Assembly: GCF_900182935.1 (NCBI RefSeq) | Contig: NZ_FXUE01000001.1 | Span: 372,001 to 436,000, forward strand | DNA from: Fibrobacter sp. UWB10 | Lineage (GTDB): Bacteria; Fibrobacterota; Fibrobacteria; Fibrobacterales; Fibrobacteraceae | Direction: 5' to 3' | Length of the DNA: 64,000 nt | Shown: one piece after another, positions 5,133 through 47,142 of the stretch | How positions within the stretch are numbered: the first letter of the stretch is position 1 | How the letters are laid out: every line of letters begins with the position of its first letter | The notes under the pieces: model-generated | What the model saw: only the letters and a program-made list of their open reading frames with translations | What the model was told of the DNA's origin: nothing | Databases searched by the model: none | Program-made: the position numbers and the translations under genes

Positions 5133-5148
5133 AAAGAGGATTGCTACA

Positions 5149-6405: not shown

Positions 6406-6407
6406 TT

Positions 6408-6428: not shown

Positions 6429-6431
6429 AGA

Positions 6432-6661: not shown

Positions 6662-7375
6662 ATGAAACATATTATTTACTTTCTTGTCGTTTTTGGGGCT
6701 CTCTTGGCTCATGCCCAGGAGATGGACACAACCTTTTTCGTGAACGAGCAGGGTCAAACCATCGGCATCGTCAAGCCGAAGGAAGAGCAGCCCGCTCCTG
6801 CTCCGGCACCCGTTGCAGTTCAGCAGCCTCAGCAGAACACAGACGGATCTTCGTGGAACAGCTCTCCGTTCGAAAAGCCGGTTCAGCAGCAAAGTGCCGC
6901 TTCTTACGGTACACAGGCTAGACCTGCAGCTTATTACGCTTTCGACAGCACGTTCTACTACCAGGATAAAATCGATCGTTTCACTAAGAGTGGTGAATCC
7001 AAACGCAGCACCGGTAGCGGTTTGATGATTGGTGGCGCAATCGGCACTGCAGTCGGTATCGCCCTTATGGTTGCTGGCGCAGATGGGTTGGAATGCGAAG
7101 AACATTACAACGGCTATTCCTATGAAGAAACTTGCGATGACGACGCTGGGACATTTGTTGCAGGTTACCTGCTTACTCTTGGTGGTGTAACCGTATTCTC
7201 GACGGGTCTTATCGTGAGAATCGTCGGCGGTTCTAAGCTGCGCAAAGCCGAACGATACAAAGAAATGCTTAACCGTTACAACATGTACAAGCCTCAAGCC
7301 GCCGTTCTTCAGATCAAGCCGGTTTGGTCTCCGCTTAAGGGTACTGTTGGCGGCGAAATGTCCTTGGGATTCTAA
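6662..7375 (+). CDS. Exported membrane protein of unknown function, Pro/Gln-rich
   Basis: A 237-residue protein with a signal peptide (MKHIIYFLVVFGALLAHAQ), a proline/glutamine/alanine-rich region (about 40-80, EEQPAPAPAPVAVQQPQQN), then two glycine-rich hydrophobic helices (about 119-142 and 160-190) separated by a short loop with two Cys (ECEEHYNGYSYEETCDDD). The C-terminus is basic (GGSKLRKAERYKEMLNRY) and presumably faces the cytoplasm or packs on the membrane. No known family is recognised. Its architecture parallels the 3882-4898 product. No Shine-Dalgarno is visible; TATCTT lies seven bases before the ATG, as in the possible leaderless genes. A terminator follows at 7401. Confidence 0.7.
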   Translation: MKHIIYFLVVFGALLAHAQEMDTTFFVNEQGQTIGIVKPKEEQPAPAPAPVAVQQPQQNTDGSSWNSSPFEKPVQQQSAASYGTQARPAAYYAFDSTFYYQDKIDRFTKSGESKRSTGSGLMIGGAIGTAVGIALMVAGADGLECEEHYNGYSYEETCDDDAGTFVAGYLLTLGGVTVFSTGLIVRIVGGSKLRKAERYKEMLNRYNMYKPQAAVLQIKPVWSPLKGTVGGEMSLGF

Positions 7376-7400
7376 CCTAATTCCAACATTTACAAATTAC

Positions 7401-7425
7401 GCGAGCTACATGGCTCGCTTTTTTT
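7401..7425 (+). terminator. Rho-independent terminator
   Basis: GCGAGC (7401-7406) pairs with GCTCGC (7413-7418) around a six-base loop, followed by seven T. Confidence 0.85.
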
Positions 7426-7523
7426 ATACCTGCGTAATTTCTGATTTTGCAACCTACTGATTGCACGCTTTGATTTTAAGTTTTGTATATTGCATTTAAA
7501 AGTCTTTATCAAGGGAACATCTT

Positions 7524-7874
7524 ATGTCTATTGCAGAAATTTCGAAACAGTTCCATGCGGAGCATCGCGGAAATTGCGCGATGGCTGTAGCGTACGGTTA
7601 CGCACGTGCAACAGGCAAGTCCGAAGTCGATGCAGTTGCCTCTGCCGAGATGTTCCGTAATTTCGGTGGCGGAAAGGCCCCGAACGGTTCCTGCGGTGCA
7701 CTCTATGCAGCCAAAATGATGCAGCCGGACCATGCCGAAGCCATTGAGGACTTTTTCAAACGTGGTGCGCAGAATTTCACCAAATGCAGTGAAATACGCC
7801 CGAACAAGATCATCCCCTGCAACCGCTGCGTGGAACTCGCCGGCGAGGCCCTAGATTTTTTAGAGGCTAAGTAA
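7524..7874 (+). CDS. C_GCAxxG_C_C family small redox-like protein
   Basis: A 116-residue cytosolic protein of the family named for its cysteine pattern. Seen here: GNCAMAVAYGYA near residue 17, NGSCGALYAAK near residue 58, then single Cys residues in FTKCSEI and IPCNRCVEL. The family is common in anaerobes and is thought to bind a metal or act in redox chemistry; the function is not established. The usual GCA is replaced by SCGA in the second motif. An AAGGGAA ribosome-binding site lies ahead of the ATG and TTGTATATT upstream (about 7483-7491) resembles the -10 of pgk. Monocistronic, closed by a terminator shared with the convergent gene. Confidence 0.75.
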   Translation: MSIAEISKQFHAEHRGNCAMAVAYGYARATGKSEVDAVASAEMFRNFGGGKAPNGSCGALYAAKMMQPDHAEAIEDFFKRGAQNFTKCSEIRPNKIIPCNRCVELAGEALDFLEAK

Positions 7875-7892
7875 ATCCAAAAAGATTCTATA

Positions 7893-7926
7893 TAAAAAAC
7901 TCCGCAAATCAGCGGAGTCTTTTTTT
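7893..7926. terminator. Bidirectional terminator
   Basis: ACTCCGC (7899-7905) pairs with GCGGAGT (7912-7918). T-runs follow on the plus strand (7920-7926) and, on the complement, after the left arm (AAAAAA at 7893-7898). It serves both the C_GCAxxG_C_C gene and the convergent Ser-rich protein gene. Confidence 0.88.
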
Positions 7927-7965
7927 GCAAAAACACAATTTCGCGAAGTTATATAGGCCTTCGCC

Positions 7966-9273
7966 TTACTTCACAGCAATTCTAGCCATACGCATTTGGC
8001 TATCGCTTTCGACGCGCACAAGGAAATTGCCCCTGTTCAAATGAGCGAGGCTAAAGCTTTTGGTGCCCATAACAGGTTCTACAAAAGATTCAACCAAATG
8101 GCCAGTCAAGTCGAACACTTGCACGCGCACCATTGAAGATGCAGGCATCGCGACAGTCAGCATATTATTCACATAGCCAAACTTCACATCATTCATTGCC
8201 TCAGCCACAATCTTCGTAGTTACTTCGCTCGAAGACGACTCAGCGGAGCTGCTAGACACAGCAGAGCTAGAAGACGCCTCGGAGCTTGAAGATGCCACAA
8301 CGCTAGACGATGAAACAACTACAGGCTTATGAGCCACTTCAACACTTGCAAAAGCCGTATCATTGTTTTTTTCGCCCTTTGCGATAACTTTTATTGAATA
8401 AGTACCATCCTTCGCATTTTCCGCGACAATTCCATTTATAGTCAAAACATCGTTCTCGACACTTATTCTAAGCGAGCCGGGCAAAGTTTGTTCAAATTTA
8501 AAATTGTCCATGTTCTCAGTGACATTCACATTTGCGAACTTGAACACAATCGGCTTTATCGAATCACCTGCAGTAACCTTCTGCTTTTCATTTTCAACAA
8601 TACTTATCGATGCAACATTCGGGAGACCTTCCACAGAGATTGTCCCTGACAACGAATGTTCTTTCGAATTTTTGTCTTTAACAGTTACCTTATAATCATA
8701 ATCACCAGACACAACAGTTTCACCCACCGTGCCAGCAATGATTATTGCATGCTCATCTTCATCAATATCGCCTTTAAGGCCGGAAGGCAGTCCACTCACG
8801 CCCCATACAGAAATTGCCTCATAATCGAAAACGATCGGCACCATAGTTTCGCCCGCCTTGACACTTTGGTTCATTTCACCGCCAGCCTCATTCCAAGCAA
8901 ACTTAAATTTTTGTTCTTCCACCTCAAATGTAATTTCCGTCTTCGCGAACTTGCCTTCATCATCTTGAACTAAAATATACGCATCTACCGTTTGGGCAGC
9001 GACATTTCTGCTAATCTTCCCAAAAATTTCACAAACCGGCCCCGTCCATTTTTCAGCCAAGCCAAGTTCAGAAATGTTACCAGATTGGTGTTTCGTTTCT
9101 TCTATATTTTCATATAAAATTCTGATCGGCGCAATCTCATCGCCCGCAGCCACAGTCTGGGTAAGGCTGCCAGCCAGAACCTGTTGCGTAATCTTTTCCG
9201 AAGCCACAAACGATTCCGCGACAGCCGCAGTAGCAAAGAATAAGGCAAAAACCAACGCTATAAACTTTTTCAT
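7966..9273 (-). CDS. Secreted Ser-rich protein with Por/T9SS-type C-terminal sorting domain
   Basis: A 435-residue protein. The signal peptide is MKKFIALVFALFFATAAVA. Residues about 20-320 form three or four repeated beta-rich modules with a recurring opening of the type VTAGDSIKPIVFKF / VKAGETMVPIVFDY / VAAGDEIAPIRILY and a closing I.G.....G.Y.. stretch, resembling Ig-like or putative-adhesin repeats. A poly-serine linker follows (about 323-353). The last about 75 residues (VFDLTGHLVESFV ... NRGNFLVRVESDSQ) resemble type IX secretion sorting domains, matching the SprA gene in this window. I chose the ATG at 9273 because the signal peptide begins there and AAGGAC lies before it. Role: cell-surface adhesin or fibre-binding protein is a guess. 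Confidence 0.72.
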   Translation of the reverse strand: MKKFIALVFALFFATAAVAESFVASEKITQQVLAGSLTQTVAAGDEIAPIRILYENIEETKHQSGNISELGLAEKWTGPVCEIFGKISRNVAAQTVDAYILVQDDEGKFAKTEITFEVEEQKFKFAWNEAGGEMNQSVKAGETMVPIVFDYEAISVWGVSGLPSGLKGDIDEDEHAIIIAGTVGETVVSGDYDYKVTVKDKNSKEHSLSGTISVEGLPNVASISIVENEKQKVTAGDSIKPIVFKFANVNVTENMDNFKFEQTLPGSLRISVENDVLTINGIVAENAKDGTYSIKVIAKGEKNNDTAFASVEVAHKPVVVSSSSVVASSSSEASSSSAVSSSSAESSSSEVTTKIVAEAMNDVKFGYVNNMLTVAMPASSMVRVQVFDLTGHLVESFVEPVMGTKSFSLAHLNRGNFLVRVESDSQMRMARIAVK

Positions 9274-9375
9274 ATAGTCCTTCTTATTTTTGACGCAAAT
9301 ATAAAAATAATGTGTAACGCAGAATTGCAACCCTTATTATCAAAATTCATCTAGAAACGAGCAAGGTCCTAATCT

Positions 9376-9529
9376 ATATCTTGAAACGGAAACAAGTTTC
9401 CGACAAGATATGATTACGACATCCTTCGACGAACAATGGGCAAAGCCCATTTCCCGCGCTAAAAGCGCGGAGTCTCAGTAACAAAGAACGCGAGCCGAAG
9501 CTGTATAAAACATACAGCGAGAGCTCGCG
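9376..9529. ncRNA. Array of four strong hairpins between two genes (unknown element or RNA)
   Basis: Four perfect or near-perfect stem-loops follow one another. 1: ATATCTTG (9376-9383) with CAAGATAT (9404-9411), enclosing CGGAAAC/GTTTCCG (9387-9402). 2: ATGGGC/GCCCAT (9436-9450). 3: CCGCGCT/AGCGCGG (9454-9470). 4: outer CGCGAGC/GCTCGCG (9489-9529), enclosing GCTGTAT/ATACAGC (9500-9518). No convincing open frame covers the region. It lies downstream of the Na/phosphate symporter and upstream of the Ser-rich protein, both on the minus strand. None of the hairpins has a T-run, so simple termination does not explain it. It could be a structured RNA, an mRNA 3' protective element or a dispersed palindromic repeat. 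Confidence 0.45.
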
Positions 9530-9564
9530 TGATGCAGTATGACGAAGTTTATAGGCGAATTCTC

Positions 9565-11271
9565 TTAGGTCGAGAATTTCTTGTTTGTGTGAGCCTCGAC
9601 CACGTTCACCACATAGTCGCCGAGTTTTTCGCAATCGTTCACCACATCCATGTAGTGCACACCCATCTGGTAGCTGTACTTCTGCGATTCGATATCGGCA
9701 ATATTTTTCTCCTTGAGGAGCTTGCGGTAATCGTTGATCTCATTCTCCATATTCAGCGTACGGTTTGCGTCGGCAGTCACAGCATCGCTAATGACATCGA
9801 TCATGTTCGTGAGCGCCTTGTCGCAAAGCTGCATCATGTGCTTGATGCGGTTGTACTGCTCTTCGGTAAAGTCGTCGGTGCTCCTAAACTTGCGGTTAAT
9901 GGCACGCGCCATATTGTAGCAGGAGTCGCCGATACTTTCAATTTCAGAAATTTCGCGGAGCATCGACTGGATGTTCGTCTTACTTTCGGGACTCAGGCGA
10001 CCTTCAGAGACCTGGTTCAGGTACTTGGCAATTTCGATTTCCATGTTGTCGCTAATGCCTTCGTACTTCTCGATGCGGGCAAAGAGCTTCACGAAATCGT
10101 TTTCGTCCTTCATTTCGAGCAGCTCAGGCACCATGCGGAACATCTTCTGCGTGCGGGTTGCAAACAAGTTAATTTCCTTGCGGGCTTCGAAGAGCGAAAG
10201 TTCTGCGGTACTCATGAGACCTGCGCTGATAAACTTGACCTTGAAATCCTCGCCGTCTTCCTTCTCGCGGATAATCTTGCAGATGATTTTTTCCATCGGC
10301 TTGATGAACCAGATGAGGATCAGCACGTTGCAGAGGTTGAATGCCGTATGGAAGGCCGAAAGCGCATAAGTCACACGCACGCCTGCCTGCGCAATTTCTT
10401 CTTCGGTATGCGGCACGAAGGTCGGATCGAACCCTACGATGCTACACACCATGTTCACGAACGGGCGGAATACAATCAGAATCCACACCACGCCGAACAC
10501 GTTGAACAGCATGTGGGCCAAGGCGGCGCGCCTTGCCTGCGTACTTGCCGAAAGGGCAGCCAGGTTCGAAGTGACTGTCGTTCCAATGTTTTCACCCATC
10601 ACGAGCGCAATGCCCTGGTAAATCGGAAGAACTCCGCTACTGCAGAGCAAGAGCGTGATTGCCATGATGGCCGCAGACGACTGCACGCACATCGTAAGGA
10701 CGCTACCCAGCAACAAGAACAAGAGCGTGCTGAAGATTCCCCAACCGCCGGTCGTCGCAAAGAAGTTGATGACCGTCTGGTTATGTGCCAAGTCCATGGC
10801 CACCGCATTTTCACGCAGCGTGGTAAGACCGAGGAACATAAACGCGAAACCGAACACGAATTCGCCGATACTCTTGGTCGAATTCTTCTTGGTGTAAGAA
10901 AGGATGATGCCGAGGGCGAAGAAGGGCCACACCACCGAGCTCATATTGAACTGGAAGCCGAATATGGACATGATCCAGGCCGTGGCCGTTGTACCGATGT
11001 TTGCGCCCATGATAACAGGAATGGCCTGACTCAATGTGAGCAGGCCAGCGTTAACGAAGCTTACGGTAAGGACGGTGGTTGCGGTAGAAGACTGCACCGA
11101 GGCCGTCACAAATGTACCCGTGAGAAGGCCTCCGATACGGTGCTTGGTCATAGTGCCAAGGACTGCGCGGAGGTGACCGCCGGTGAGTTTCTGCAAGCCT
11201 TCACTCATCGTCTTCATGCCGAACATGAGGAGCGCAAGGCAACCGATCATTTTAAGAATCATAAGTGTCAT
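9565..11271 (-). CDS. Na/Pi cotransporter family protein with PhoU-like C-terminus
   Basis: A 568-residue inner-membrane protein. The N-terminal half holds two inverted Na_Pi_cotrans repeats with the QSS signature in each: TASVQSSTATTVLTVSF near residue 58 and TMCVQSSAAIMAITLLL near residue 205, and the paired GANIGTTATAW and GENIGTTVTSN loops. About eight hydrophobic segments precede a cytosolic helical PhoU-like region (about 350-560), which includes SEIESIGDSCYNMARAINRK. The family (NptA/YjbB) moves phosphate with sodium; bacterial members may export or import. The ATG at 11271 is used, with a possible alternative three codons later. There is no pst or pho neighbour. Confidence 0.88.
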   Translation of the reverse strand: MTLMILKMIGCLALLMFGMKTMSEGLQKLTGGHLRAVLGTMTKHRIGGLLTGTFVTASVQSSTATTVLTVSFVNAGLLTLSQAIPVIMGANIGTTATAWIMSIFGFQFNMSSVVWPFFALGIILSYTKKNSTKSIGEFVFGFAFMFLGLTTLRENAVAMDLAHNQTVINFFATTGGWGIFSTLLFLLLGSVLTMCVQSSAAIMAITLLLCSSGVLPIYQGIALVMGENIGTTVTSNLAALSASTQARRAALAHMLFNVFGVVWILIVFRPFVNMVCSIVGFDPTFVPHTEEEIAQAGVRVTYALSAFHTAFNLCNVLILIWFIKPMEKIICKIIREKEDGEDFKVKFISAGLMSTAELSLFEARKEINLFATRTQKMFRMVPELLEMKDENDFVKLFARIEKYEGISDNMEIEIAKYLNQVSEGRLSPESKTNIQSMLREISEIESIGDSCYNMARAINRKFRSTDDFTEEQYNRIKHMMQLCDKALTNMIDVISDAVTADANRTLNMENEINDYRKLLKEKNIADIESQKYSYQMGVHYMDVVNDCEKLGDYVVNVVEAHTNKKFST

Positions 11272-11375
11272 AGGACATTCCTACGGAACGCCACTACCGG
11301 ATCATCGTCGCTGCCTTTCAGCTAGTTCGGGCTCATGGCGGTGAATTGTTTGTTGTAAAGACTACGTAAAATATA

Positions 11376-34801: not shown

Positions 34802-34835
34802 AAAAAGCCTCTCACAAAGGAGAGGCTTAAATTTT
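34802..34835. terminator. Bidirectional terminator between ybaK and the xylanase gene
   Basis: AAGCCTCTC (34805-34813) pairs perfectly with GAGAGGCTT (34820-34828) around a six-base loop. T-rich runs follow on both strands. It ends the plus-strand ybaK and the minus-strand sensor/xylanase operon. Confidence 0.85.
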
Positions 34836-34854: not shown

Positions 34855-35856
34855 TTACTTCACCGAGATGCTACGGACAGCGCGGCCCTGCTTTACCATG
34901 TAAATGCCGGAATTGTACTTGGCCTTGATGGCTGCATTCAGGGATTCTGCGTCAGCCGTTTCAAAAGAGCCGAGGTACTTGCCTTGAGCGTCAAACACGA
35001 GCGACTTGCTGTTGTCGGCCGTCATAGAGCGAATACCCTTGATTGCATCCGTCGAGCTACTGGATTCAGGTTCAGCAGAAGAACTGGACTGTTCAGCGCC
35101 TTCGATATAGACCTTGGCATAGGGGAAGTCGTATTCGCCCTTGGCATTAGCACCGCTGTTGCTTCCGGCTTCGCCGAGAATCTTGGCTTCGTGCATCTTA
35201 CCCATCTTCATGCCAAGTTCTTCCCACTTCTTGAAGTGAGCGGTAATGTCGATAGTACCGCAATCACGCTTACTCTTACGCACGCTGAAATACTGCTTAA
35301 AGTATTTATTGTCACCATCGATGGAATAAGAGGTGCGGTCACCTTCGTAAACCGTATACTGGGCACCATCGATTTCAAAATCGCCGTGATTCTTTGCAGA
35401 AGCACCCTGAGCAACCCACGAGCCAGGCATATACTGGCTACCGGTGTTATCCACAATGTACCATTCCACTAGAGGTTCACGGGTCCAGCCATAAATGCCG
35501 ATGTAGGAATAGTCGATTCCAGAAAGACCGCTCTTGACCAGCTTGAAGTCCGCCTTCATGTGACCGATTTCTTCGTGAGTCTTATCGCTATTGAAAGCAA
35601 GACCCGTACGGCACAGGTAGTCCTTGGCACCTGTCATCTTGCAGTTAAGGGAGCCGTCGGAATAGAACGTCGCAGAACCACCGTTGCCGCCTTCGTTCCA
35701 AAGTTCGTAACCAACGTCGCCGATAGTTCCGACCTTGTTCGTAGACACTTCCACGGATTCACCGCTATGGGTTGTCGTATTGCAGAAATCCTGAGCAAAA
35801 ACATTTGCAGTCAGGGAACAAGCGGCGATTAAGCCGAATTTAAGAATTGTTCTCAT
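34855..35856 (-). CDS. Secreted GH11 endo-1,4-beta-xylanase with C-terminal sorting-like domain
   Basis: A 333-residue secreted protein. Signal peptide about 1-21 (MRTILKFGLIAACSLTANVFA). The GH11 jelly roll spans about 22-250: GGSATFYSDGSLNCKMTG, YSYIGIYGWTREPLVEWYIVDN with the nucleophile E131, and EAKILGEAGSNSG with the acid/base E229. A Ser-rich linker (about 255-270) precedes a C-terminal about 60-residue domain ending GIYMVKQGRAVRSISVK, resembling type IX sorting domains. The start at 35856 has AAGGAAGG upstream. It begins 28 bases after the stop of the second hybrid kinase and may be the last gene of that operon, or have its own weak promoter in the gap. Confidence 0.9.
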   Translation of the reverse strand: MRTILKFGLIAACSLTANVFAQDFCNTTTHSGESVEVSTNKVGTIGDVGYELWNEGGNGGSATFYSDGSLNCKMTGAKDYLCRTGLAFNSDKTHEEIGHMKADFKLVKSGLSGIDYSYIGIYGWTREPLVEWYIVDNTGSQYMPGSWVAQGASAKNHGDFEIDGAQYTVYEGDRTSYSIDGDNKYFKQYFSVRKSKRDCGTIDITAHFKKWEELGMKMGKMHEAKILGEAGSNSGANAKGEYDFPYAKVYIEGAEQSSSSAEPESSSSTDAIKGIRSMTADNSKSLVFDAQGKYLGSFETADAESLNAAIKAKYNSGIYMVKQGRAVRSISVK

Positions 35857-35884
35857 ATACACCTTCCTTTGGTTTAAAAGCAAT

Positions 35885-38413
35885 TTAACAAAATTCTGTA
35901 CGAAGCAATCGAATCAACGCCGTATATTTCTGTATAAACGCTTCGTGATTCTTTTTCACAAAGTCAAAATCGCCTTCTTTGCAAGCCATTTCGAGCGCCT
36001 TGGCATCTTCTGACACTTTTATCGCTCCAATTGTAAGAGAAGTACTTTTTACAGCATGCACTGTAATACGGTAATATTCAAAATCTTCTTTACTAAAAGC
36101 CTCCATCAATTCTTCTGTTTTGTCTGCACTGACATATTCACCAAGCATTTCCTTATAAAATTTCTGATCATTCATGCAATAGGCAAGGCCTGTTGCCTCG
36201 TCCAAGAAATCGGACAACTTTGTTGAAGACTGCACCGCCGGCTTTTCGTTTTCAGCGTTCGCACTTTCTACAGCGGAATTCTTTGCAACAGACTTAACCA
36301 ATTCTTTAGGCAAGAACTTCTTGAGGCAAGAAAGCAAAACCTCTTCGCGAATCGGCTTTGCAATATAATCCGAGAAACCTTCATCCATGTACTGATTTTT
36401 GGCGTCGACCACAGCATTTGCGGTAAGCATCACGACAGGTGTATTCGTATTCGGACTCTTTGCAAGTTGTCTCATCTGGCGGAACGCTTCGATACCATCC
36501 ATCACAGGCATCATGTGATCCAAGAATACAACATCGTAGTGATTCTTTTCAATGAGTTTCAAGGCTTCGGCCCCATTGATTGCCGTATCAATCTGAATCT
36601 TGGTATCTTTGAGAAGGCCCGCAAAAACCTTCAGGTTCATTTGCATGTCGTCAGCCAAAAGAACTCTTGCATCAGGCGCAATAAACTTTTCGTGAGCAGC
36701 ATCCATAACATTCACCTGCTGCTTGTACAACTTATAAAAATCGCCTAGAGGTTTTTCATCGCTCACCTGTTGCATCAAATGGACCTTGAAGGTAGACCCT
36801 TCGCCATAAACACTGTCTACGCTTATAAAGCCGCCCATCATATCAACCAACTGCTTGGTCAGATTCAAACCAAGCCCCGTACCTTCAATGTTACGGTTTC
36901 GTTTTTCATCGAGGCGGACAAAGTCCCTGAAAAGTTTTCCGACATCCTTTTCACGAATACCGATGCCCGTATCCTTCACATGAATAAAGAGCTCCACCTG
37001 ATTGCCATTGTTTCCCTGCATCGGGTCGACATCAACTTTCTCAGTCCAAACAGAGAGCGTGACTGTACCTTCGTTCGTGTACTTGACCGCATTCGAAAGC
37101 AGATTGTTAATAATCTGCCTTATACGAACTTCATCGCCAAACAAAGCTGCCGGAATTTCAGGAGAAATATCCATCACCAATTCCAAGTTTTTATCTTTGG
37201 CACGAATGGCAACCATATTGTAGCAATCATTCAATACATTGAATACGCTATATGTTACCGGCAAAATTTCCATTTTGCCTGATTCAATTTTCGAAATATC
37301 CAAAATATCATTAACGAGCGAAAGCAGCGTCTGCCCAGCGCTCTGAATATTCAAGGCATAGTCACGCAACGATTCGTCTTTGCATTCCTTAAGGAGCATC
37401 GAATCCATACCCAAAATGCCATTAATCGGCGTACGAATTTCATGACTCATGTTGGCAAGGAATATACTTTTCGCCTTGCTCGCACTTTCGGCATTTTCTT
37501 TTTCGCGAAGCAGTTCCTTATTTTCACGAGCCTTCTTTTCTGACACAACCACATAGATCATGGCTATCGAGAACATGAATATCAAAAGGCCGAACACCCA
37601 GATAATCAAAAATGAAATATCATCTTTTTCAGACGCCACTACTTCCGCGGGCACCACCCCCGTCAAGACAACGCCCGGCAACTTGAGGTCTGCAACAAAG
37701 TAATAATATTCAACCCCATCAACCTCTAAATTTGCAGCCGAGGCAATAGATACATTCAAGCCGCTTGCAAGTTTTTCGCGAACCGCCTGGTAGCCTCTTT
37801 TGCCCCAGAGCAACGACTTCCCCAACGCCTCATTATCGGAATCAATAATGATTTCATCTTTTGAATCTCGCAAAACGGCATAACCCTTGCCGCCATATGA
37901 AACCACTCCAAAATTCTTGATAATGAATTCTTCCTTGAAAAGGCGGAACAACACATACTTGATATTTTTCCCGCTATACACCGGAACCGAGAACAAGAGT
38001 CCCTTTCCTTTGCAATAGCTGATATATTTGGCTCCGTGAAACGACTCGGAAAAGCCCTTGAAATCGGCAAAGCGAATATCATGATCGCCGCCCGAATAAA
38101 CAATCTTGTCATTTAAGGCCATTACACCGTAATAGAATTCCCCATTCGGATCTTCTAAAGTGGAAAGCATTCGATCAATATTATACATGTTGGCTGAAAG
38201 CCCCGCCGAAATTCCGACCAGGGATTTCAACTGTAGCACAAGCCTTTCACCGGTCGCTTCAGCATAGTTTTCCGCCTGGAAAGCAATCTGTTTTTCGACA
38301 TAGCTTTGAAACAGGCTCGAAAACTTAATGCGTAACAATCCCCCAACCAAAAGGAGAATCAACACAAAAAATAAAAGACCAATTAGAGGACGTACACCAA
38401 ATTTTTTAATCAT
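35885..38413 (-). CDS. Hybrid sensor histidine kinase with periplasmic Cache-like sensor, REC and Hpt domains
   Basis: An 842-residue inner-membrane kinase. Helix 1 spans about 8-30, a large periplasmic sensor about 31-265 (double-Cache-like), and helix 2 about 266-290. HisKA has [19 protein letters not shown] (H324). HATPase_c follows with NNLLSNAVKYT, DTGIGI and [11 protein letters not shown]. The REC domain has LLADDMQMNLK and [12 protein letters not shown] (phosphoacceptor Asp). A C-terminal Hpt domain has [14 protein letters not shown] with the phosphoacceptor His. It overlaps the stop of the anchored binding-protein gene by four bases. No dedicated DNA-binding regulator is adjacent, so the Hpt may feed the HD-GYP regulator at 42842. 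Confidence 0.93.
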   Translation of the reverse strand: MIKKFGVRPLIGLLFFVLILLLVGGLLRIKFSSLFQSYVEKQIAFQAENYAEATGERLVLQLKSLVGISAGLSANMYNIDRMLSTLEDPNGEFYYGVMALNDKIVYSGGDHDIRFADFKGFSESFHGAKYISYCKGKGLLFSVPVYSGKNIKYVLFRLFKEEFIIKNFGVVSYGGKGYAVLRDSKDEIIIDSDNEALGKSLLWGKRGYQAVREKLASGLNVSIASAANLEVDGVEYYYFVADLKLPGVVLTGVVPAEVVASEKDDISFLIIWVFGLLIFMFSIAMIYVVVSEKKARENKELLREKENAESASKAKSIFLANMSHEIRTPINGILGMDSMLLKECKDESLRDYALNIQSAGQTLLSLVNDILDISKIESGKMEILPVTYSVFNVLNDCYNMVAIRAKDKNLELVMDISPEIPAALFGDEVRIRQIINNLLSNAVKYTNEGTVTLSVWTEKVDVDPMQGNNGNQVELFIHVKDTGIGIREKDVGKLFRDFVRLDEKRNRNIEGTGLGLNLTKQLVDMMGGFISVDSVYGEGSTFKVHLMQQVSDEKPLGDFYKLYKQQVNVMDAAHEKFIAPDARVLLADDMQMNLKVFAGLLKDTKIQIDTAINGAEALKLIEKNHYDVVFLDHMMPVMDGIEAFRQMRQLAKSPNTNTPVVMLTANAVVDAKNQYMDEGFSDYIAKPIREEVLLSCLKKFLPKELVKSVAKNSAVESANAENEKPAVQSSTKLSDFLDEATGLAYCMNDQKFYKEMLGEYVSADKTEELMEAFSKEDFEYYRITVHAVKSTSLTIGAIKVSEDAKALEMACKEGDFDFVKKNHEAFIQKYTALIRLLRTEFC

Positions 38414-39516
38414 TGCTCAACCACGCCATTGATAAGCCATTCCATTTCACTACGCAAGGCGTCATCACTAATTGTTTCACCTTCTTCACAACGGACATGT
38501 CCCTTGTTATCGACAATCTTACCCGTGAAAACATGATAACCATCCTTAATTCTTTGAATGGTATTTTGAATCCGGACCTTAATGGAATCAGGAATTTCGT
38601 TCGAATAAAAAGCAAGACCTACAGCATCTTTATCAAGTCCAAACCAGTAATCCATATTTTCCGTATTTTTATTCTGGAAGAAATCCTGGAACACACCCTT
38701 GTAAATAATATTCCAATTAACATTTATAGAGCTCAACATTTTAGGAGAGTAATAATTTTTTTCAACGTGGTTTCCAATAGAATACACCCCTCGGGCTTCG
38801 GCAACCTCAACGACATGCGAACGATCCTGATGTAACGAAATCACGTCTACATTAAAACTATCGATTAACGCATTCGCAGCTTCAGTTTCAATTTCTTCAT
38901 TATCCCAGAAATGAGTCCAGCGCAAATACACCTGAACTTTCGGATTCACGCTTTGTGCGCCAATGGCAAATGCGTCGATTCCCCTATAGACTTCGCTATT
39001 TTTCATGGCAGCCACATAACCGACATGATTCGTCTTGGTCATGGCTCCCGCTATAATGCCCGCAAGGTACCTGGCTTGATAAGTTCGGGCAAAATAAGGC
39101 TTATAATTGGGCGCTTTAAATTTCCAATCACCACCATAGAATGTCACATCCGGATGCGCCCCGATAACGCCATCTATTTTCTTAGGATAATTATAGCTCG
39201 TCAGAACAATGATTTTGATACTGTCGGCAATCATGTCTTTTACGACTTTTGCAAGCGGCGCCGTTTCTTCGGGCACATCAATTGCCACAACCATTTGTGC
39301 GCCTAGGCTATCACATGCAATTTTTGCTCCCTTGTAATGAGCTTCATTCCAACCATTGTCAGCCGTATCGCTTAAAAGAATAAAACCTACGCGGAGTTTT
39401 TGAGCGACCGACTTCTGCATTTTTTTGTCGTTGCCAGCCTCTTCAAAGGTCATATACAGCAACGAAAAGAACGCTACAACCGCTATGATTGCAGCGACCG
39501 TAATTCTACTTTTCAT
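38410..39516 (-). CDS. Membrane-anchored BMP/Med-family substrate-binding protein (copy A)
   Basis: A 368-residue periplasmic-binding-fold protein. Residues 5-22 form an uncleaved-looking hydrophobic anchor (TVAAIIAVVAFFSLLYM) with no lipobox cysteine. The body matches the BMP/Med family: DTADNGWNEAHYKGAKIACD (ligand-loop), YFARTYQARYLAGIIAGAMTKTNHVGYVAAMKNSEVYRGIDAFAIGAQSVNP, and a C-terminal end FTGKIVDNKGHVRCEEGETISDDAL. Family members bind nucleosides or related ligands, or act as regulators (Med). No ABC permease or ATPase gene is near. It overlaps copy B by 11 bases and the following kinase by four, so it is translated with them. Ligand unknown. Confidence 0.88.
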   Translation of the reverse strand: MKSRITVAAIIAVVAFFSLLYMTFEEAGNDKKMQKSVAQKLRVGFILLSDTADNGWNEAHYKGAKIACDSLGAQMVVAIDVPEETAPLAKVVKDMIADSIKIIVLTSYNYPKKIDGVIGAHPDVTFYGGDWKFKAPNYKPYFARTYQARYLAGIIAGAMTKTNHVGYVAAMKNSEVYRGIDAFAIGAQSVNPKVQVYLRWTHFWDNEEIETEAANALIDSFNVDVISLHQDRSHVVEVAEARGVYSIGNHVEKNYYSPKMLSSINVNWNIIYKGVFQDFFQNKNTENMDYWFGLDKDAVGLAFYSNEIPDSIKVRIQNTIQRIKDGYHVFTGKIVDNKGHVRCEEGETISDDALRSEMEWLINGVVEQ

Positions 39517-40606
39517 CTATGGTTACCCCCTTCACAAACCAATTAAAATTATTCAGCATGTCCGTATCAGACATGGTCTCACCCTCGTTTATACGAATCA
39601 CTCCCGTATTGTCTTCTATAGGGCCATAAAAAACATCAAAAGATCCATTCTGGATTTTTTCTCGTTCGCTTTCAACTAACGCAATAGCCTCTGGATTCAC
39701 ATGACTAGTGAACGGCGATAAATCGATAATGCCAGAATTGATTCCTTCCCAATAGCGTTTGCTTACGAATCTCTTTTTGAGCACATCAAAGATATGCGGG
39801 ATATAAAATTTTTCCCAGCGCCATACCGGAGCCGTCAAAAAATGATCTGGATATAAATCCGCATTGTCCAAATTGTAGCCCACAATCCACACCCCAAGAG
39901 AATCGGCAATGCGCATGGGAGTTTGGCTATCGACATGTTTTGCAAGAACATCTATCGAATCGTTCGCCAAAAGAGCCCGCGTCGCTTGGGCGCAGACCTT
40001 GTCGTTATTCCAGGATTTTGTCCAACGCACAATCACGCTCGCATCGGGATTGGCCTTCTTGACGCCTAAGGTAAACGCATTGATTCCACGAATTACTTCA
40101 GGAATATCGTATGCGGCTACATAGCCTATTTTCCCGGTTTTACTTTGCATGCCGGCCACAATGCCCGAAAGGTAGCGCATTTGGTACATACGGCCAAAGA
40201 AAGTCGCCACATTCGGAGCCGTCTTTATACCGGACGCATGGAAAAATTTCACATCAGGGTGTCTGACAGCAACATTCTGAATATAGGGACCAAACTGGAA
40301 CGAATTGAGAATGAGCACCTTTACACCCGCAGCAATAAGGCCTTCCATAACCGCTTCAGACGTTCTATTGGTCGGAATCTGTTCACGGAACAAGACATCT
40401 AGATTCAATTTCTCAGCAGCCTTTTTCATGCCCTCGTAATGCGATTGTCCCCAACTATGGTCATCAATCGTGCCATGCATAATCATCGCGATTTTTGTCT
40501 TTTCGCGGGTGATATCGGTATTCTTCTTTTTCACATTGACGGTGAACAAACCGGCTAAAATAACGGCGATAATTACAGTCGGAATAACATAGATGAGTTT
40601 CATCAT
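39506..40606 (-). CDS. Membrane-anchored BMP/Med-family substrate-binding protein (copy B)
   Basis: A 366-residue paralogue of copy A with the same plan: N-terminal hydrophobic anchor ([20 protein letters not shown]), no lipobox, then the BMP/Med body ([113 protein letters not shown]). It is closer to the family consensus than copy A, so the two probably recognise different ligands. It overlaps the first hybrid kinase by four bases and copy A by 11. Confidence 0.88.
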
Positions 40607-42819
40607 GCACCTCCTGCAAGGTACTCAGAAAGCTTATCTAAAATTTTCTTATAGTCCGCCATGCATATTTCATGCTGTTCGCGAACAAAGTCAAAATTTC
40701 CTTCTTTGCAAGCATTTTCGAGAGCCTTGGACATTTCCGAAAGTTTCACCGCCCCAATCGTAAGAGATGTGCTCTTGAGCGAATGAATGACTATGCGATA
40801 ATGATCGAAATCACTTCTAGAAAAAGACTTTTCCAAATCAGAACGGCGGTCATTTTTCACATATTCCAAAAGCATTTCATGGTAGAACTTTTTGTCGTTC
40901 ATACAATAGCCAAGCCCTGTCGCCACATCTAGAATTTCAGAAAGCCCGCCCACGGTTCGTGGGCTTTCAACGGTCTCAGCAGCCTTGCTATCCGAACTTT
41001 CACTTTCGACAATCAAATTTTGCGGCAAGTATTTCTTTACTATCGAAAGCAACACTTCTTCACGAATAGGCTTTGTAATGTAGTCAGTAAAGCCCGCCTG
41101 CATATAGGAATCCTTCGCGCCGACAACCGCATTGGCCGTAAGCATGACCACAGGCGTTTTATTGATATCAAAGTCCTTCAATTCCCTCATGCACTGAAGC
41201 GTTTCGATGCCGTCCATCACGGGCATCATGTGGTCCAAGAGAATCAAGTCGTAACGATTTTCTTCGACAAGCGTAAGAGCGTCTTCGCCATTCGTCGCAG
41301 TGTCAATATTTATTTCAGTTTCCTTAAGGAGTCCGCTGACAACTTTCAGATTCATAGCCACATCGTCAACCACCAAAAGTTTGGCCTTACTCGCCTTAAA
41401 CTTTTTCGCACCCGAAGTGACCGAAATAAATTCCTTATGGCGTTCCATAAAGTTGCCAATAGGAGTATCATCCTTGACCACCTGCGGAATATGGACCTCG
41501 AACACGGAGCCAGAACCGTACACGCTCTTGACCAAAATACGGCCACCCATCATTTCAACCAATTTCTTGGTCAGATTCAGTCCAAGGCCCGTTCCCTCAA
41601 TATTTCTATTACGATCCAAATCAATTCGTTCAAAGCTCTGGAACAATTTATCACGGTCCACAGAACGAATGCCGATTCCGGTATCCGCCACCACAATTAC
41701 AAGCTCAATCTTGTGTACATCATCTTCGTCCGGCAAATTTCTGAAATCAACCGACAAATCTACCGTTCCCTTGGGCGTGTACTTGATAGCGTTCGAAAGC
41801 AGATTGTTCACTATCTGGCGCAAGCGAACTTCGTCGCCTTCAAGCATCGACGGAATTTTCGGGCTCACGTTGACATCGAATTCCAGATTCTTACTCTGGG
41901 CGCGCGGATTTGCAACACAATAGCAATCGTTCAATACAGCAAACAAATCGTACTCGCCCACCAGAAGTTCCATTTTGCCCGATTCAATTTTCGTGATATC
42001 CAAAACATCGTTCACCAGCGAAAGAAGCGTGTGTCCTGCATTCTGAATATTCTGGGCATAATCGCGCAAGGTTTCGTCTTTGCATTCCTTCAGCAACATG
42101 GTGTTCATGCCCAAAATGCCATTAATCGGCGTTCGAATTTCATGACTCATATTGGCAAGGAAAAAGCTCTTGGCCATATTCGCAGACTCCGCATTCTTTC
42201 TCGCCGCTTCAGCCTCGGCCCATGCCTTGCTCAATTCATCGGAACGTTGCGCTTTTTCACGAGCGTTATTCAAATTTTCTAGCATGGTATGCGTTAAGCG
42301 CGCAATCACGATACACAGAATCGTCATCACAATAGATTCTATCAAAAATCCCGCACACCTCGACACCCACCAAAGCGTATCTGTTTCAAACTCACCATGG
42401 TTTGCACCATGCGCTCTAAAATAAAGCGAAACAACAATCAATAAGTAGCTAACAATCGAAATCTTGAGCGTAAAAGCCGCATTAAAAAACAACAGGCTTG
42501 TCACCATGGCAAGAGTGTATGTCATGTATATGCCAATATTTTCATTGGTTGCAAGCATCGCGATAATACTTGCCATTCCAAGCACGCAAAAATACCGGCG
42601 CAACGTGAGCGGAGCGTTCATGCGTTCGGTAAAAGTGGGAAGCCACAAAATCACGAACGCAATACCTGTTAAAACGTTCAACTCAAAATAATCGATTTTA
42701 AACAAATGAACAATATTTCCCAAATAAATCAAAGGAAACATCGCCCAAAGCCAGCGCATTACTCGCGTGAGTTTCTTTAAGACTCGGCGGTCATTCTCTT
42801 CAAAAATATCATTACCCAT
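40603..42819 (-). CDS. Hybrid sensor histidine kinase with multi-helix membrane domain, REC and Hpt
   Basis: A 738-residue kinase. Residues about 20-175 form about six membrane helices with little periplasmic sequence, a MASE-like sensor. A coiled coil (about 178-215) leads to His[21 protein letters not shown] (H226), HATPase_c ([28 protein letters not shown]), REC ([24 protein letters not shown]) and a C-terminal Hpt ([15 protein letters not shown]). From HisKA onward it is closely similar to the 35885 kinase, so one arose by duplication with a swapped sensor. The ATG at 42819 follows GGGGAG and is preferred to 42891, which would overlap the preceding gene. It overlaps the next gene by four bases. 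Confidence 0.93.
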
Positions 42820-42841
42820 AGTCGGCTCCCCTCGACTAATT

Positions 42842-43912
42842 TTATACGGCGTGCCCGTCGTCCCGCATCTCGTAATGGGAATCGTCATCAATCATCTGGA
42901 GCATTATATCGGCAAAATCAGGATCAAATTGTAGACCGCGACCTTTCACGATTTCTTCGCGCACGACATTTTGCGGAAGCGCCGAACGATAACTGCGTCG
43001 ACTAGTCATGGCATCGTAGGCATCGGCCACGGCAATAATACGAGCAATTTCAGGAATGTTATAACCCGACAATCCTTCGGGGTAACCCTTGCCATCAAAG
43101 CGCTCATGGTGGTAATGCGCTCCGATTTCAATATTCGGCATTTCAGAAATGTTCTTCAAAATTTCAACACCGATACTCGGGTGCTGCTTGATTGTCTCGT
43201 ATTCCTCGTCGGTCAGTTTGGAACTCTTGTTCAGAATATTATCCGGAACTCCAATTTTTCCGATATCATGCAAAAGCGCCACGATGTAGATTTCGTCTTG
43301 GTACTCGATTGGCTTACCTGCACGGAGCGCAATTTCTCTGCTGTATTTAGCAACTCGGCTAGAATGACCATTCGTGTAGCGGTCTTTGGCATCGATTGTC
43401 GACGCAAGCGTTTTGACAACCTGCAACGAAAGCATTTGAAGCTTATGTTGACTTTCCTTAAGTTCAGCAGTGCGTCGCACCACTTCGCTTTCAAGAGAAT
43501 CCTGCAACTTTTGCAGAGACAGAATGCGTTTGATTCTTTCTAGAACAACTTCTGGAACCAAAGGCTTTTGGATATAGTCCTGAGCGCCTTCCTTAAACAC
43601 CCGGACCTCCGTCTCACGGTCGCTGTCCGCGGTCAAGAACACCACCGGCAAGCCATCACAGGTTTTAATCTTCCGTATTTCCAACAGAAGTTCAAACCCA
43701 TTCATGTCGGGCATGTGCACATCCAAAAGTGCTAGTGCAGGCCGTTCTTTCGAAAGGTATGCAAGCGCCTCTTTGTATGACTGAGCCAACACAACATTGT
43801 ACGCCGAGCTCAACATGTGCTCGGCGAACCTCAAGTTCATGCGGTCGTCATCAACCACCAAGACCGTTTCTTTGGTGCTGGGCGCCTCGTTATTGTTATA
43901 CGGAACCACCAT
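42842..43912 (-). CDS. Response regulator with HD-GYP phosphodiesterase output
   Basis: A 356-residue cytosolic protein. REC domain about 15-135: [11 protein letters not shown] and [12 protein letters not shown] with phosphoacceptor D64, and the switch Lys in YIQKPL. A linking coiled coil (about 136-165) precedes the HD-GYP domain (about 165-345): HD at 215-216 in [12 protein letters not shown] at 268-270, and GKGYPEGL with GYP at 276-278. All usual metal ligands appear present, so hydrolysis of cyclic di-GMP is predicted. First gene of the sensory operon; the first kinase starts 22 bases after its stop. Likely receives phosphate from one or both hybrid kinases. Confidence 0.92.
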
Positions 43913-43984: not shown

Positions 43985-44018
43985 TGTGAAAATGTGACGA
44001 AATTATCACAATATCACA
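43985..44018. promoter_or_regulatory. Double-dyad operator-like site between the sensory operon and the GH16 gene
   Basis: TGTGA at 43985-43989 and 43993-43997 is mirrored by TCACA at 44006-44010 and 44014-44018, giving TGTGA, 3 nt, TGTGA, 8 nt, TCACA, 3 nt, TCACA. The half-sites resemble those of CRP/FNR-type factors, but the central spacing is eight rather than six. It lies 30 bases before the GH16 start and 73 bases before the HD-GYP regulator start. Confidence 0.5.
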
Positions 44019-44047
44019 CAAAATACCGATTTTTGAGGAATTTAGCC

Positions 44048-45142
44048 ATGTTTTTGTTACGCTTTAGACATTTCATTCTATGCGCAGGCACCATTTTTGC
44101 CGTCGCAGCCTGCTCCTCAGACTCCTCATCTAGCGCAGAATATCCTGATCAATGGGATCCATATCCCGAAACACCCTCCAGCAGTTCTTCGATTGCAACA
44201 GAAGATTCCGGCTCAAAGGTCGGAACGCAATCCTCTAGTTCCGCAGAACTGGTTGCAAGCTGTTCAAGTGATATCGCAACTAGCTCGAGCGATGCCTCAA
44301 GCAGTTCCAGCGAAGCGGCAAATTCTTACGCCGCAGACATCAACAGTTCTAGCGAAGCCGCTAGCAGTTCAAGTGAAACCGCGAACATCGCAAGTAGCTC
44401 CAGCGAGATCCTTTCAAGCGACAGCCAATACCTCTGGCACGACGAATTCGACGGCGACGGCGTCGATACCGACAAATGGACTTTTGAAATCGGCACAGGC
44501 GCAAGCGGCTGGGGCAACAACGAATGGGAATACTACACCAACCGCAAAGAAAACGCCTACGTGCAAGACGGCATTTTGCACATTCGCGCAAACAAAGAAG
44601 ACTACGAAGGCTCCAAGTACACCTCGGCCCGCATTATCACCAAGGACAAGTTTAGCTTCACCTACGGCACCGTAGAAGCCCGCATCGCACTCCCTGTGGG
44701 CAAAGGCATTTGGCCTGCCTTCTGGCTACTCGGCCAGAACATCGACGCCGTAAGCTGGCCCGCCTGCGGCGAAATCGACATCATCGAAACCGTGAACAGC
44801 GAAAACATTGTGTACGGCACAAACCATTGGGCAAACGGCACCGAATACGCGACTTACGGCAACAACACCGGCAATTATCGCGACCAAAAGTTCGAACTCG
44901 ACGTCACGCAATTCCACAATTACAAATTCACATGGGACGAAAAGTACATCCGCATGTTTGTGGATGACTTCATGTACCACGAGATTTTAATTGAAAATAA
45001 CACCGGCGACACCGAAGAATTCCACAAGCCGTTCTTCTTTATCTTGAATGTCGCCGTTGCAGGTAACTGGCCCGGATTCGAAGTAGACGACGCTCAATTC
45101 CCGAACGAAATGCTCGTCGACTACATTCGAGTTTCCAAATAA
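44048..45142 (+). CDS. GH16 family beta-glucanase lipoprotein
   Basis: A 364-residue exported protein. The signal peptide ends in a lipobox (FAVAA-C22). A long Ser-rich linker spans about 23-130 with repeated SSSSEAASSSS-like units. The GH16 domain (about 135-364) opens LWHDEFDGDGVDTDKW, has GWGNNEWEYYT, and the catalytic GEIDIIE run (about 241-247) with nucleophile and acid/base glutamates. It ends FILNVAVAGNWPGFEVDDAQFP, typical of laminarinase/lichenase members. Predicted to cut beta-1,3 or mixed-linkage beta-glucan at the cell surface. The ATG at 44048 has GAGGA upstream; the longer frame from 43994 runs through the operator. It converges with the GH5 gene two bases away. Confidence 0.92.
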   Translation: MFLLRFRHFILCAGTIFAVAACSSDSSSSAEYPDQWDPYPETPSSSSSIATEDSGSKVGTQSSSSAELVASCSSDIATSSSDASSSSSEAANSYAADINSSSEAASSSSETANIASSSSEILSSDSQYLWHDEFDGDGVDTDKWTFEIGTGASGWGNNEWEYYTNRKENAYVQDGILHIRANKEDYEGSKYTSARIITKDKFSFTYGTVEARIALPVGKGIWPAFWLLGQNIDAVSWPACGEIDIIETVNSENIVYGTNHWANGTEYATYGNNTGNYRDQKFELDVTQFHNYKFTWDEKYIRMFVDDFMYHEILIENNTGDTEEFHKPFFFILNVAVAGNWPGFEVDDAQFPNEMLVDYIRVSK

Positions 45143-45144
45143 TA

Positions 45145-47013
45145 TTACTTCACCATCACTTTCTGAGTCAGGTTGATTCCCTGGCCCTTGATTTTAACAA
45201 GGTACACGCCCTTTGCCGCATTCACCTTGAACTGGTGCGTGCCTGCAGAAAGTGTACCCTTGTGAAGCGTTACAACCTTGTGGCCCGTGACATCGAAGAG
45301 TTCCGCCGTCACGCCTTGTGTGCGACCCATCGAAAGAGTGAGCATGTCGCCACTTACACGCAGAGCCTTGGCACCTGCAACGTGCGGACGCATGCAAATT
45401 CCCGAGGGATCTCCGAACACGATTTTGATTTCGGGAATCATCTCTTCGGTGTTCTCGAAGCCGCGACTGAATGCGTCGTACTTGTCTTCGTTAAAGTCCC
45501 AGAGAACCTGGTCTCCAGCCTTGAAATTATCGTAGAAGATGGTGCCGGTATAGCCTGCGGCATAGTTTGCGATAACGACGCTCAAGGTCTTGTTACGGTC
45601 GGTATAGCTGGAAATATCGAACGAACAAGTCTTGGACTGGCCCGCGGCTACTTCGCAGGGGCCTTCCACTTCGGTCCATTTCCACGCATCCGTCAGCTTG
45701 AAAATCAAGTTCAGTTGCGCATCGCTTTCGCTCTTATTGGTAACCTCGAACGTAAACGTATTGGCCTTGCTCAAATCCCAAGTCTTCTGGTATTCAATCT
45801 GGGCATTGTCGCCGCCGTAAGTCACAGACATCTTGCCGTCACCGCCTTCCTGGCTGATGGCGACATCCTTGATCTTGATGCTTGCTTCTTCGGTAGCGGC
45901 AAGGGCCTTCATGGCATCAAGAGCCGGGTCAATGGTGTAAGTGTAACCGCCAAAGTTCGATTCGGTCTTGTCGCCAATATACTGCCAGGCAAGTGCGCCG
46001 GCATAACCGCCGTCAAAGGCCTTGCGGTAGCATTCTTCGGTAGAAATCTGGGTCTTGGCCGCCATGCTTGTAGTATAAGTATCGCCCTTCCAGCCGCTTG
46101 CCGGAAATTCACCGATAATCATGGGCTTGGAATCGTAGCCATACTTGGTCGCCATCTGGGCCGCCGTATTCACGAACGGAGACACGGCATCGTTCTGGTA
46201 GTACGGATAGTAATGCGTCTGGAAAAAGTCGAGCGTACCGTTCGCTTCGCCACCGGCGGCGATAAGTTCGGAATCGTTCCACCAGCTCTGATACTGAATA
46301 TTCACGCTACCGGTGGACACGAGCAATTCCGGGTTTGTGGTATGGATTGCCGCAGCAATCTTGTTCGTGAACTTCTGCAGCACAGCCTTGTCGAGTTTCT
46401 TGGTGGTCCAGCCTACACTTGTCATGCCTTCGGGTTCGTTGAACACTTCCCAAGTCATAAGCGCATTATGGTTACCGATTGCTTTTACTACCGGAACAAG
46501 CGCATTGTCGATAAAGGCTTTGGTGCCCGCGTCTTCAAAAAGCTGCGTGTTTGCGGTAATGTCCAGCTTTTCGTCGTATAGGCCCCACTGATTCGGTTCC
46601 ATCAGGTTGTGGCTGAAAAGGCACATCGAAACCATCACGCCGTATTCTTCGGCAATATCCAAAGCCTTCTTCATGTTGACGATGGTGTTTGCCTTGAGGC
46701 CCGAAACCAGATGCGTGCTCTGATCGATTTCGGGACTTTGGCTCATGTTGTTGAAGAGCCACCAGCGAATGGCGTTACCACCCGCAGCGCGCGTGCCTTC
46801 GACAGCCTTGCGCCAAGCGTTTTCGTTCAGCGGGGAATCGCCCACATCGGAGTTGTAGTCGCTCCAAGCGAGGTTCGTACCCGAGAAGAAAATCTTCTTG
46901 CCGTTGTACATGAGATCGGTGCCGCTTACGGTGAGTCCCGGGGCAGCGAAAGCAGAAACAGCTCCGCCGAGCAATAAAGCTCCGCTTAAAGCCTTGAAAC
47001 CATATTTTTTCAT
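45145..47013 (-). CDS. Secreted GH5-type glycoside hydrolase with CBM-like and sorting domains
   Basis: A 622-residue secreted protein with signal peptide MKKYGFKALSGALLLGGAVSAFA. The catalytic barrel (about 25-380) has GNAIRWWLF, the acid/base E193 in TWEVFNEPEG and the nucleophile E302 in PMIIGEFPASG, typical of clan GH-A, family 5 mannanases or glucanases (subfamily not resolvable by eye). A beta-sandwich (about 390-525; WDLSKANTFTFEVTNKSESDAQLNLIFKLTD) looks like a carbohydrate-binding module. The C-terminal about 80 residues (LFDVTGHKVVTLHKG ... KGVYLVKIKGQG) form a type IX-like sorting domain. The ATG at 47013 has GAGGAG upstream. Confidence 0.88.
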   Translation of the reverse strand: MKKYGFKALSGALLLGGAVSAFAAPGLTVSGTDLMYNGKKIFFSGTNLAWSDYNSDVGDSPLNENAWRKAVEGTRAAGGNAIRWWLFNNMSQSPEIDQSTHLVSGLKANTIVNMKKALDIAEEYGVMVSMCLFSHNLMEPNQWGLYDEKLDITANTQLFEDAGTKAFIDNALVPVVKAIGNHNALMTWEVFNEPEGMTSVGWTTKKLDKAVLQKFTNKIAAAIHTTNPELLVSTGSVNIQYQSWWNDSELIAAGGEANGTLDFFQTHYYPYYQNDAVSPFVNTAAQMATKYGYDSKPMIIGEFPASGWKGDTYTTSMAAKTQISTEECYRKAFDGGYAGALAWQYIGDKTESNFGGYTYTIDPALDAMKALAATEEASIKIKDVAISQEGGDGKMSVTYGGDNAQIEYQKTWDLSKANTFTFEVTNKSESDAQLNLIFKLTDAWKWTEVEGPCEVAAGQSKTCSFDISSYTDRNKTLSVVIANYAAGYTGTIFYDNFKAGDQVLWDFNEDKYDAFSRGFENTEEMIPEIKIVFGDPSGICMRPHVAGAKALRVSGDMLTLSMGRTQGVTAELFDVTGHKVVTLHKGTLSAGTHQFKVNAAKGVYLVKIKGQGINLTQKVMVK

Positions 47014-47142
47014 AATACTCCTCAAACACCACCCTCCTTTGGAGTGGTTATCTGAAAAATACACTAATAAGGCTTTAAACGATTATTTTTTATTTCAAGG
47101 CGTTGACATTCATCACGGAAAATGTCCACACCTGCAAAAAAA
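47014..47142. promoter_or_regulatory. Promoter region of the GH5 gene, with an inverted repeat
   Basis: The 129 bases between the mnmA stop and the GH5 start hold no gene. GACATT (about 47105-47110) and AATGTC form a six-base inverted repeat around a GC-rich loop. There is no T-run, so termination of mnmA here is unproved. Confidence 0.3.

Follow-up and report, generated by a model that had tools for sequence, protein, structure and literature searches.

Organization of the gene cluster in the window

Two binding proteins of the BMP (PnrA) family are encoded between two hybrid histidine kinases in Fibrobacter sp. UWB10, beside a gene for an HD-GYP protein and a gene for a GH11 xylanase. This locus raises the question of whether such binding proteins serve transport or signalling, which of the two kinases is their partner, and whether xylan has any part in what is sensed.

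The genes lie on the minus strand of the window, which is the whole stretch of 64,000 nucleotides that was analyzed (NZ_FXUE01000001.1, positions 372,001 to 436,000). The gene of a REC-HD-GYP response regulator (42842-43912; Pfam Response_reg and HD_5), a predicted cyclic-di-GMP phosphodiesterase, is followed after 22 nt by the gene of the hybrid kinase HK1 (40603-42819), for which a TTG-started open reading frame extends to 42891. HK1 overlaps by 4 nt the gene of BMP1, a membrane-anchored binding protein of the PnrA/BMP type (39506-40606; Pfam Bmp, 2.6e-49), and BMP1 overlaps by 11 nt the gene of BMP2, a second membrane-anchored BMP and an anciently diverged paralogue (38410-39516; Pfam Bmp, 7.6e-34). 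BMP2 in turn overlaps by 4 nt the gene of the hybrid kinase HK2 (35885-38413), and the GH11 xylanase gene, which has an ATG start (34855-35856; Pfam Glyco_hydro_11, 2.8e-33), begins 28 nt past HK2. The gene order, gaps, and overlaps given in the original prediction, which was made from the letters of this DNA, proved exact. Congeners share the order and the overlaps, and the BMP-BMP-kinase core recurs in other phyla; therefore, the operon arrangement is not due to chance. Divergently oriented to the HD-GYP gene is a gene for a GH16 enzyme that contains a serine-rich linker, and the protein encoded next to it gave a weak match to a Por secretion tail (genes at 43994-45142, plus strand, and 45145-47064, minus strand).

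HK1 matched HisKA, HATPase_c, Response_reg, and Hpt in Pfam. HK2 matched HisKA, HATPase, and the receiver domain; its Hpt domain was not listed by Pfam, but the Hpt histidine motif is present. Both kinases have every catalytic motif (the phospho-acceptor His, the N and G boxes, the receiver Asp, and the Hpt His), and their cores show 60% identity over 531 amino acids. The membrane domain of HK1 has approximately six hydrophobic helices, as judged by eye (a simple scan flags only some of them), and a large extracytoplasmic domain is absent. In HK2, two hydrophobic helices at residues 9-27 and 268-286 flank an extracytoplasmic domain of approximately 240 residues (sensor at 37595-38341, minus strand). 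The two kinases thus share a core and differ in their sensors, as had been proposed.

Three types of cassette in Fibrobacter

Any Bmp gene was found in 16 of 61 genomes, the source genome included, and 11 of these 16 belong to the genus Fibrobacter (37 genomes). Throughout the genus, every Bmp gene adjoins hybrid kinase genes and none adjoins ABC genes. Type A cassettes have the order HDGYP-HK1-BMP1-BMP2-HK2 (the window, L035, L037, L039, L042, L044, L046, and L049). Type B cassettes have the order HKa-BMP-HKb (L034, in the same genome as the window, and L036, L040, L043, L045, L047, and L050). In type C cassettes (L038, L041, L048, and L095), the order is HKa-BMP1-BMP2-HK2, which may or may not be preceded by an HD-GYP gene and an additional kinase gene. 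Genes for NUDIX, patatin (DUF6363), and GGDEF proteins come after the type C cassette (L038, 14783-15946; L095, 12789-16400), so that its neighborhood holds a cyclase and, in some cases, also an HD-GYP phosphodiesterase.

L037 (7282-13512) is a type A cassette without HK1, in which BMP1 starts 48 nt after the HD-GYP gene. HK1, which has been seen only in Fibrobacter so far, is an accessory component that can be absent, as in L037. The idea that two BMPs gate two kinases was not supported, since among the kinases only HK2 is an invariant partner, HK1 being missing from L037 and devoid of a large extracytoplasmic domain.

Conservation of a type B cassette with two pseudokinases

The second cassette of the source genome, L034 (G000:C1:934000-951000), carries on its minus strand HKa (8675-11347), a single BMP between HKa and HKb (7581-8678), the hybrid kinase HKb (5096-7597), and then NUDIX (4579-5112) and patatin (3710-4600) genes. 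It is kept in six more Fibrobacter genomes, seven in total. Both HKa and HKb of type B lack the phospho-acceptor His and retain the receiver Asp. At the His position, HKa has N, R, or S and HKb has Q, K, or T. HKa has kept its ATP-binding boxes; HKb no longer has the Hpt His and is devoid of G boxes. The HKb sensor falls into the family of HK2 sensors (probability 100, E value of 1.3e-51).

In the closest pairs, dN/dS was approximately 0.06-0.10 in type B genes and 0.05-0.09 in type A genes; dS was saturated in the other pairs. Pseudogene decay of type B was rejected because its dN/dS is as low as that of the active cassette. Type B was found only in genomes that also carry type A and in seven of the eight such genomes, a count that is uncorrected for shared ancestry. 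A pseudokinase variant of ChrS forms pairs with HrrS, its active paralogue (PMC9491836), and DivL regulates CckA (PMC9430884). By analogy with ChrS, we propose that the type B pseudokinases may pair with active kinases. A dead kinase working through an active one is common to the ChrS variant, DivL, and this proposal; here, however, two pseudokinases flank one BMP and are conserved across seven Fibrobacter genomes.

Kinase-linked and ABC-linked BMPs beyond the genus

The BMP alignment was scanned against one genome per species (84,980 species), and the best 80 loci were retained. Because this first search selected by BMP, the counts describe BMP-containing loci among the best 80: 47 were kinase-linked, 32 were ABC-linked, one lay at a contig end, and none was both. 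The kinase-linked loci came from Lachnospiraceae, Oscillospiraceae, Selenomonas (two named isolates), Treponema, and Fibrobacter; Selenomonas ruminantium ATCC 12561 (L097) and S137 (L096) and Lachnospiraceae bacterium C10 (L091) are carriers that can be cultivated. In all 47, a binding-protein gene adjoins a transmembrane kinase gene in the same orientation, mostly in overlapping frames, and the HK2 start mostly lies inside the last BMP gene or a few bases past it. Two BMPs were present in 42 of the 47, and the single-BMP forms include Treponema. A compact form, HDGYP-BMP-HK, was seen in Selenomonas (L156 and L157), followed in L156 by a Na+/H+ antiporter gene. The BMPs of L061 (titled Thermoflexaceae) and L093 (Synergistales) lie near those of Lachnospiraceae and Selenomonas, and the phylum labels of both loci are doubtful.

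On a BMP tree of 108 rows, the ABC and kinase states were separated by one change with a support of 100, and BMP2 formed a single clade with a support of 99. Since BMP2 is one clade on this tree, the duplication that gave rise to BMP1 and BMP2 is older than the spread of the cassette. The Fibrobacter BMPs branch among Lachnospiraceae-type sequences, a position that suggests horizontal transfer. The conserved core is BMP1-BMP2-HK2 and not the six-gene stretch of the window.

Association of the HK2 sensor with BMPs

In Fibrobacterota, the HK2-sensor family and kinase-linked BMPs were found in the same 11 genomes, all of them Fibrobacter, with 18 sensors for 18 BMP loci. A profile search for this sensor gave no match in the 26 other congeners or in the 24 other Fibrobacterota; the sensor-negative genomes include five non-Fibrobacter genomes with Bmp genes, among which L051 and L053 were confirmed to be ABC-linked. 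In other phyla, an HK2-type sensor was present in 34 of 34 cassette genomes, and among 16 genomes with ABC-type BMPs it was absent from 14 and weakly matched in two. The Selenomonas-type genomes had 10 extra strong sensors with a readable context, eight of which come after a BMP. The other two, divergent sensor kinases of one Selenomonas genome (L159 and L162), have no adjoining BMP. The pairwise distances of BMP1, BMP2, and the HK2 sensor were correlated at 0.82-0.90, a correlation that mirrors shared history as well as contact.

The predicted structure of the HK2 sensor has an alpha/beta double-Cache (PDC) fold (pLDDT 89.9, pTM 0.84). The PDB matches listed for this model were mostly double-Cache domains of chemoreceptors and kinases; the best of them were Cache chemoreceptors that bind their ligands directly, and McpH, a receptor for uric acid, was also listed. 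A search of the sensor profile against PDB sequences gave no significant match. Double-Cache domains can themselves bind small molecules. HK2 might accordingly sense a ligand of its own, with the BMPs forming a separate scavenging or ligand-buffering layer that merely shares the operon. The fold matches, weak dCache_1 matches in five of the 29 sensors of the alignment, and the two Selenomonas kinases without a BMP speak for direct sensing. However, the sensor family almost never occurs without a BMP, no permease for scavenging was found, and the pseudokinase cassette retains precisely an HK2-type sensor and a BMP. Furthermore, RxWY, the direct-ligand motif of dCache_1, was found in none of the 29 HK2 sensors (an RxW string occurs anywhere in three), whereas nine of 10 Fibrobacter HKa sensors carry it; comparison of the HK2 and HKa sensor profiles gave a probability of 5.6 and no convincing relation. 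We consider direct sensing by HK2 unlikely, although it is the strongest of the competing explanations, and favor a sensor in which the BMPs report to HK2.

Ligand-binding pocket and likely ligand of the BMPs

In AtzT, guanine is contacted by Y45, S97, the F98 backbone, E165, W194, N218, and N220 (PMC6834077). The corresponding pocket consists of W52, S102, F103, E170, W199, H224, and D226 in BMP1 and of W56, S107, Y108, E175, W204, H229, and D231 in BMP2. The H-x-D pair of both proteins agrees with the adenine-bound structure 3S99, which matched BMP1 at 1.2e-55. Since these purine-pocket residues are largely conserved through the cassette family, a purine base or a close analogue of one is the best prediction of the ligand; the pocket points to such a compound and not to a xylan product. 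The original prediction had left the ligand open as a nucleoside or something similar, and the conserved AtzT and 3S99 contacts narrow it to a purine base as the best candidate. The conservation of the pocket is common to the ABC-linked BMPs, so that it predicts the ligand class and not the function.

The pocket residues are changed in the divergent Selenomonas-type copies L160, L161, L163, and L164, whose ligands may differ. In these copies, a gene for a PTS_EIIC-like membrane protein stands directly before the BMP and the HK2-type kinase.

Relation of the xylanase gene to the cassette

GH11 follows the kinase only in a subset of Fibrobacter, namely in the window, L035, L039, and L044 and in the MAGs L058 and L059. 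In whole genomes it was found in four of eight type A operons, and it was absent from the loci of all other phyla. A tool scan detected no terminator-like hairpin between HK2 and GH11 and one 3' of GH11 (34805-34828, minus strand), in a scan that overall was not above chance. Promoter-like sites in the window were approximately as frequent as in shuffled sequences. A promoter-like element, TTGCAA-16-TTAAAT, was recognized by eye before GH11 in five relatives and is weaker in the window.

A six-gene operon that includes GH11 could in principle sense a hemicellulose product and drive xylanase expression. The short gap, the lack of a terminator-like hairpin in it, the recurrence of the linkage, and the sugar-sensing analogues XylFII-LytS and CuaD (PMC6321045, PMC10384115) are in line with this explanation. 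It is nevertheless improbable: GH11 is missing from half of the operons of the same type, the pocket is of the purine type, the output gene next to the kinases encodes an HD-GYP protein instead of a transcription factor, and the element before GH11 stands against it. GH11 is a local add-on, a neighbor in one subclade and not a member of the cassette. A xylan-sensing unit was therefore rejected as the core idea, and the earlier notion of a closed unit tied to xylan degradation was not supported.

Membrane anchors and absence of transport genes

BMP1 and BMP2 both have an N-terminal hydrophobic anchor that looks uncleaved, and neither has a lipobox. A lipobox was found in 25 of 32 ABC-linked BMPs, compared with none of 52 first BMPs and five of 52 second BMPs of kinase-linked loci, and a hydrophobic N-terminal segment is present in all kinase-linked BMP1 and BMP2 proteins. 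By these sequence features, the kinase-linked BMPs have exchanged a lipoprotein signal for a predicted transmembrane anchor.

No ABC genes were found near kinase-linked BMPs (0 of 47 loci). The only PF02653 permease genes of the source genome are a urea-type ABC transporter pair beside urease with its own binding protein (L056, G000:C4:262000-270000), so no permease matching the BMPs was found in this genome. BMP/PnrA proteins normally serve ABC importers (as in L051 and L053, and by their NCBIfam name), but that these BMPs are ordinary importer proteins with a permease in trans is hardly credible and was rejected, because the only candidate permeases are those urea transporter genes, no kinase-linked locus carries ABC genes, the kinase-linked clade is distinct, and the lipobox is lost. 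The kinase-linked BMPs look sensory and not transport-related, and the original prediction to this effect was borne out when relatives were checked for ABC genes.

HD-GYP proteins and cyclic-di-GMP turnover

The HD-GYP protein of the window has intact receiver residues and, behind the receiver domain, the HD motif HDIGK and an 11-residue HHExxDGxGYP motif, in keeping with a predicted phosphodiesterase. The protein has one receiver in the GH11 clade, and a REC-REC-HD-GYP form of approximately 475 amino acids is found in the congeners without GH11 (L037, L041, L042, L046, L048, and L049). An HD-GYP gene was located near 23 of the 47 cassettes, on the upstream side in Fibrobacter and on the downstream side in many Lachnospiraceae; none was seen near approximately half of the cassettes, several of which lie on short contigs. 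This repeated association suggests a connection of the cassettes with cyclic-di-GMP turnover. The source genome (3.48 Mb) has 32 GGDEF matches, seven HD-GYP matches, and one PilZ match, and cyclic-di-GMP has been measured in F. succinogenes grown on cellulose and glucose (PMC6851124).

Discussion

We think it probable that the cassette encodes a periplasmic three-component sensor in which BMP1 and BMP2 report an external purine-like ligand to HK2, which signals to the HD-GYP protein. In this scheme, the two BMPs, fixed to the inner membrane and free of an importer, would bind a small molecule from outside, in all likelihood a purine base or an analogue. They would contact HK2 at its double-Cache domain and, on binding the ligand, alter its kinase activity. 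Within the hybrid kinase, phosphate would then pass from His to Asp to His; from there it would reach the receiver of the HD-GYP protein encoded alongside, whose hydrolysis of cyclic-di-GMP would change. In most Fibrobacter copies, HK1 would feed a further signal, sensed at the membrane, into this output.

In LuxP-LuxQ, TorT-TorS, XylFII-LytS, and CuaD-CuaSR, a binding protein passes its ligand state to a kinase sensor, and its gene often adjoins that of the kinase (PMC6321045, PMC10384115, PMC11113362). The cassette shares with such three-component systems a binding-protein gene that stands beside a kinase gene and is not part of an importer at the locus. It differs from them in that the binding proteins belong to the BMP/PnrA family (PF02608), occur as two diverged tandem copies, are membrane-anchored, and have a purine-type pocket, and in that an HD-GYP protein often takes the place of a transcription factor as the regulator encoded nearby. 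In the open-licence literature, no paper was found that describes a BMP-family member in this role or a BMP together with a kinase, HD-GYP, or Fibrobacter.

LuxP is an AI-2-binding protein of PF13407, whereas both binding proteins here match PF02608 Bmp and no other Pfam family; the sensor of LuxQ is a double PDC (PMC8534201), the fold modeled for HK2. The sensor of TorS is all-helical, unlike the alpha/beta Cache domain of HK2. AtzT, Brucella 3S99, and Borrelia BmpD, which represent BMP/PnrA ABC importers, are of the same family with the same purine contacts, but the cassette has neither a permease nor an ATPase, a transmembrane anchor stands in place of the lipoprotein signal, and its BMPs form a separate clade. 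The CahR-type dCache_1 domains are AI-2 sensors of rumen bacteria, found on histidine kinases and cyclic-di-GMP enzymes (PMC9540692). They have in common with the HK2 sensors the niche, several of the genera in which they occur, and a double-Cache sensor on a kinase. However, the HK2 sensors lack RxWY, while the upstream HKa kinases of other Fibrobacter cassettes carry RPWY. The R-x-W pair (R126 and W128 in PctA), looked for as the RxWY string, was likewise not found in the HK2 sensors.

A broader proposal is that the kinase-linked BMPs make up a distinct class of purine receptors, shared by gut anaerobes of several phyla, with control over cyclic-di-GMP, and that the dead version in Fibrobacter, with its BMP between two pseudokinases, tunes the active cassette by forming mixed complexes. 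We put this forward tentatively, as a possibility that is on balance doubtful. The pseudokinase version provides a natural test of dead kinases modulating live ones.

The recurrence of the cassette across phyla in gut anaerobes looks like that of a widespread and previously undescribed chemical sensor. If the three-component reading is true, a whole branch of the purine- and nucleoside-binding BMP family has left transport for signalling, and a likely ligand class can be assigned to an orphan kinase family that is widespread in rumen and gut bacteria. External purines from cell turnover and digestion would then be a testable input to cyclic-di-GMP in fiber degraders.
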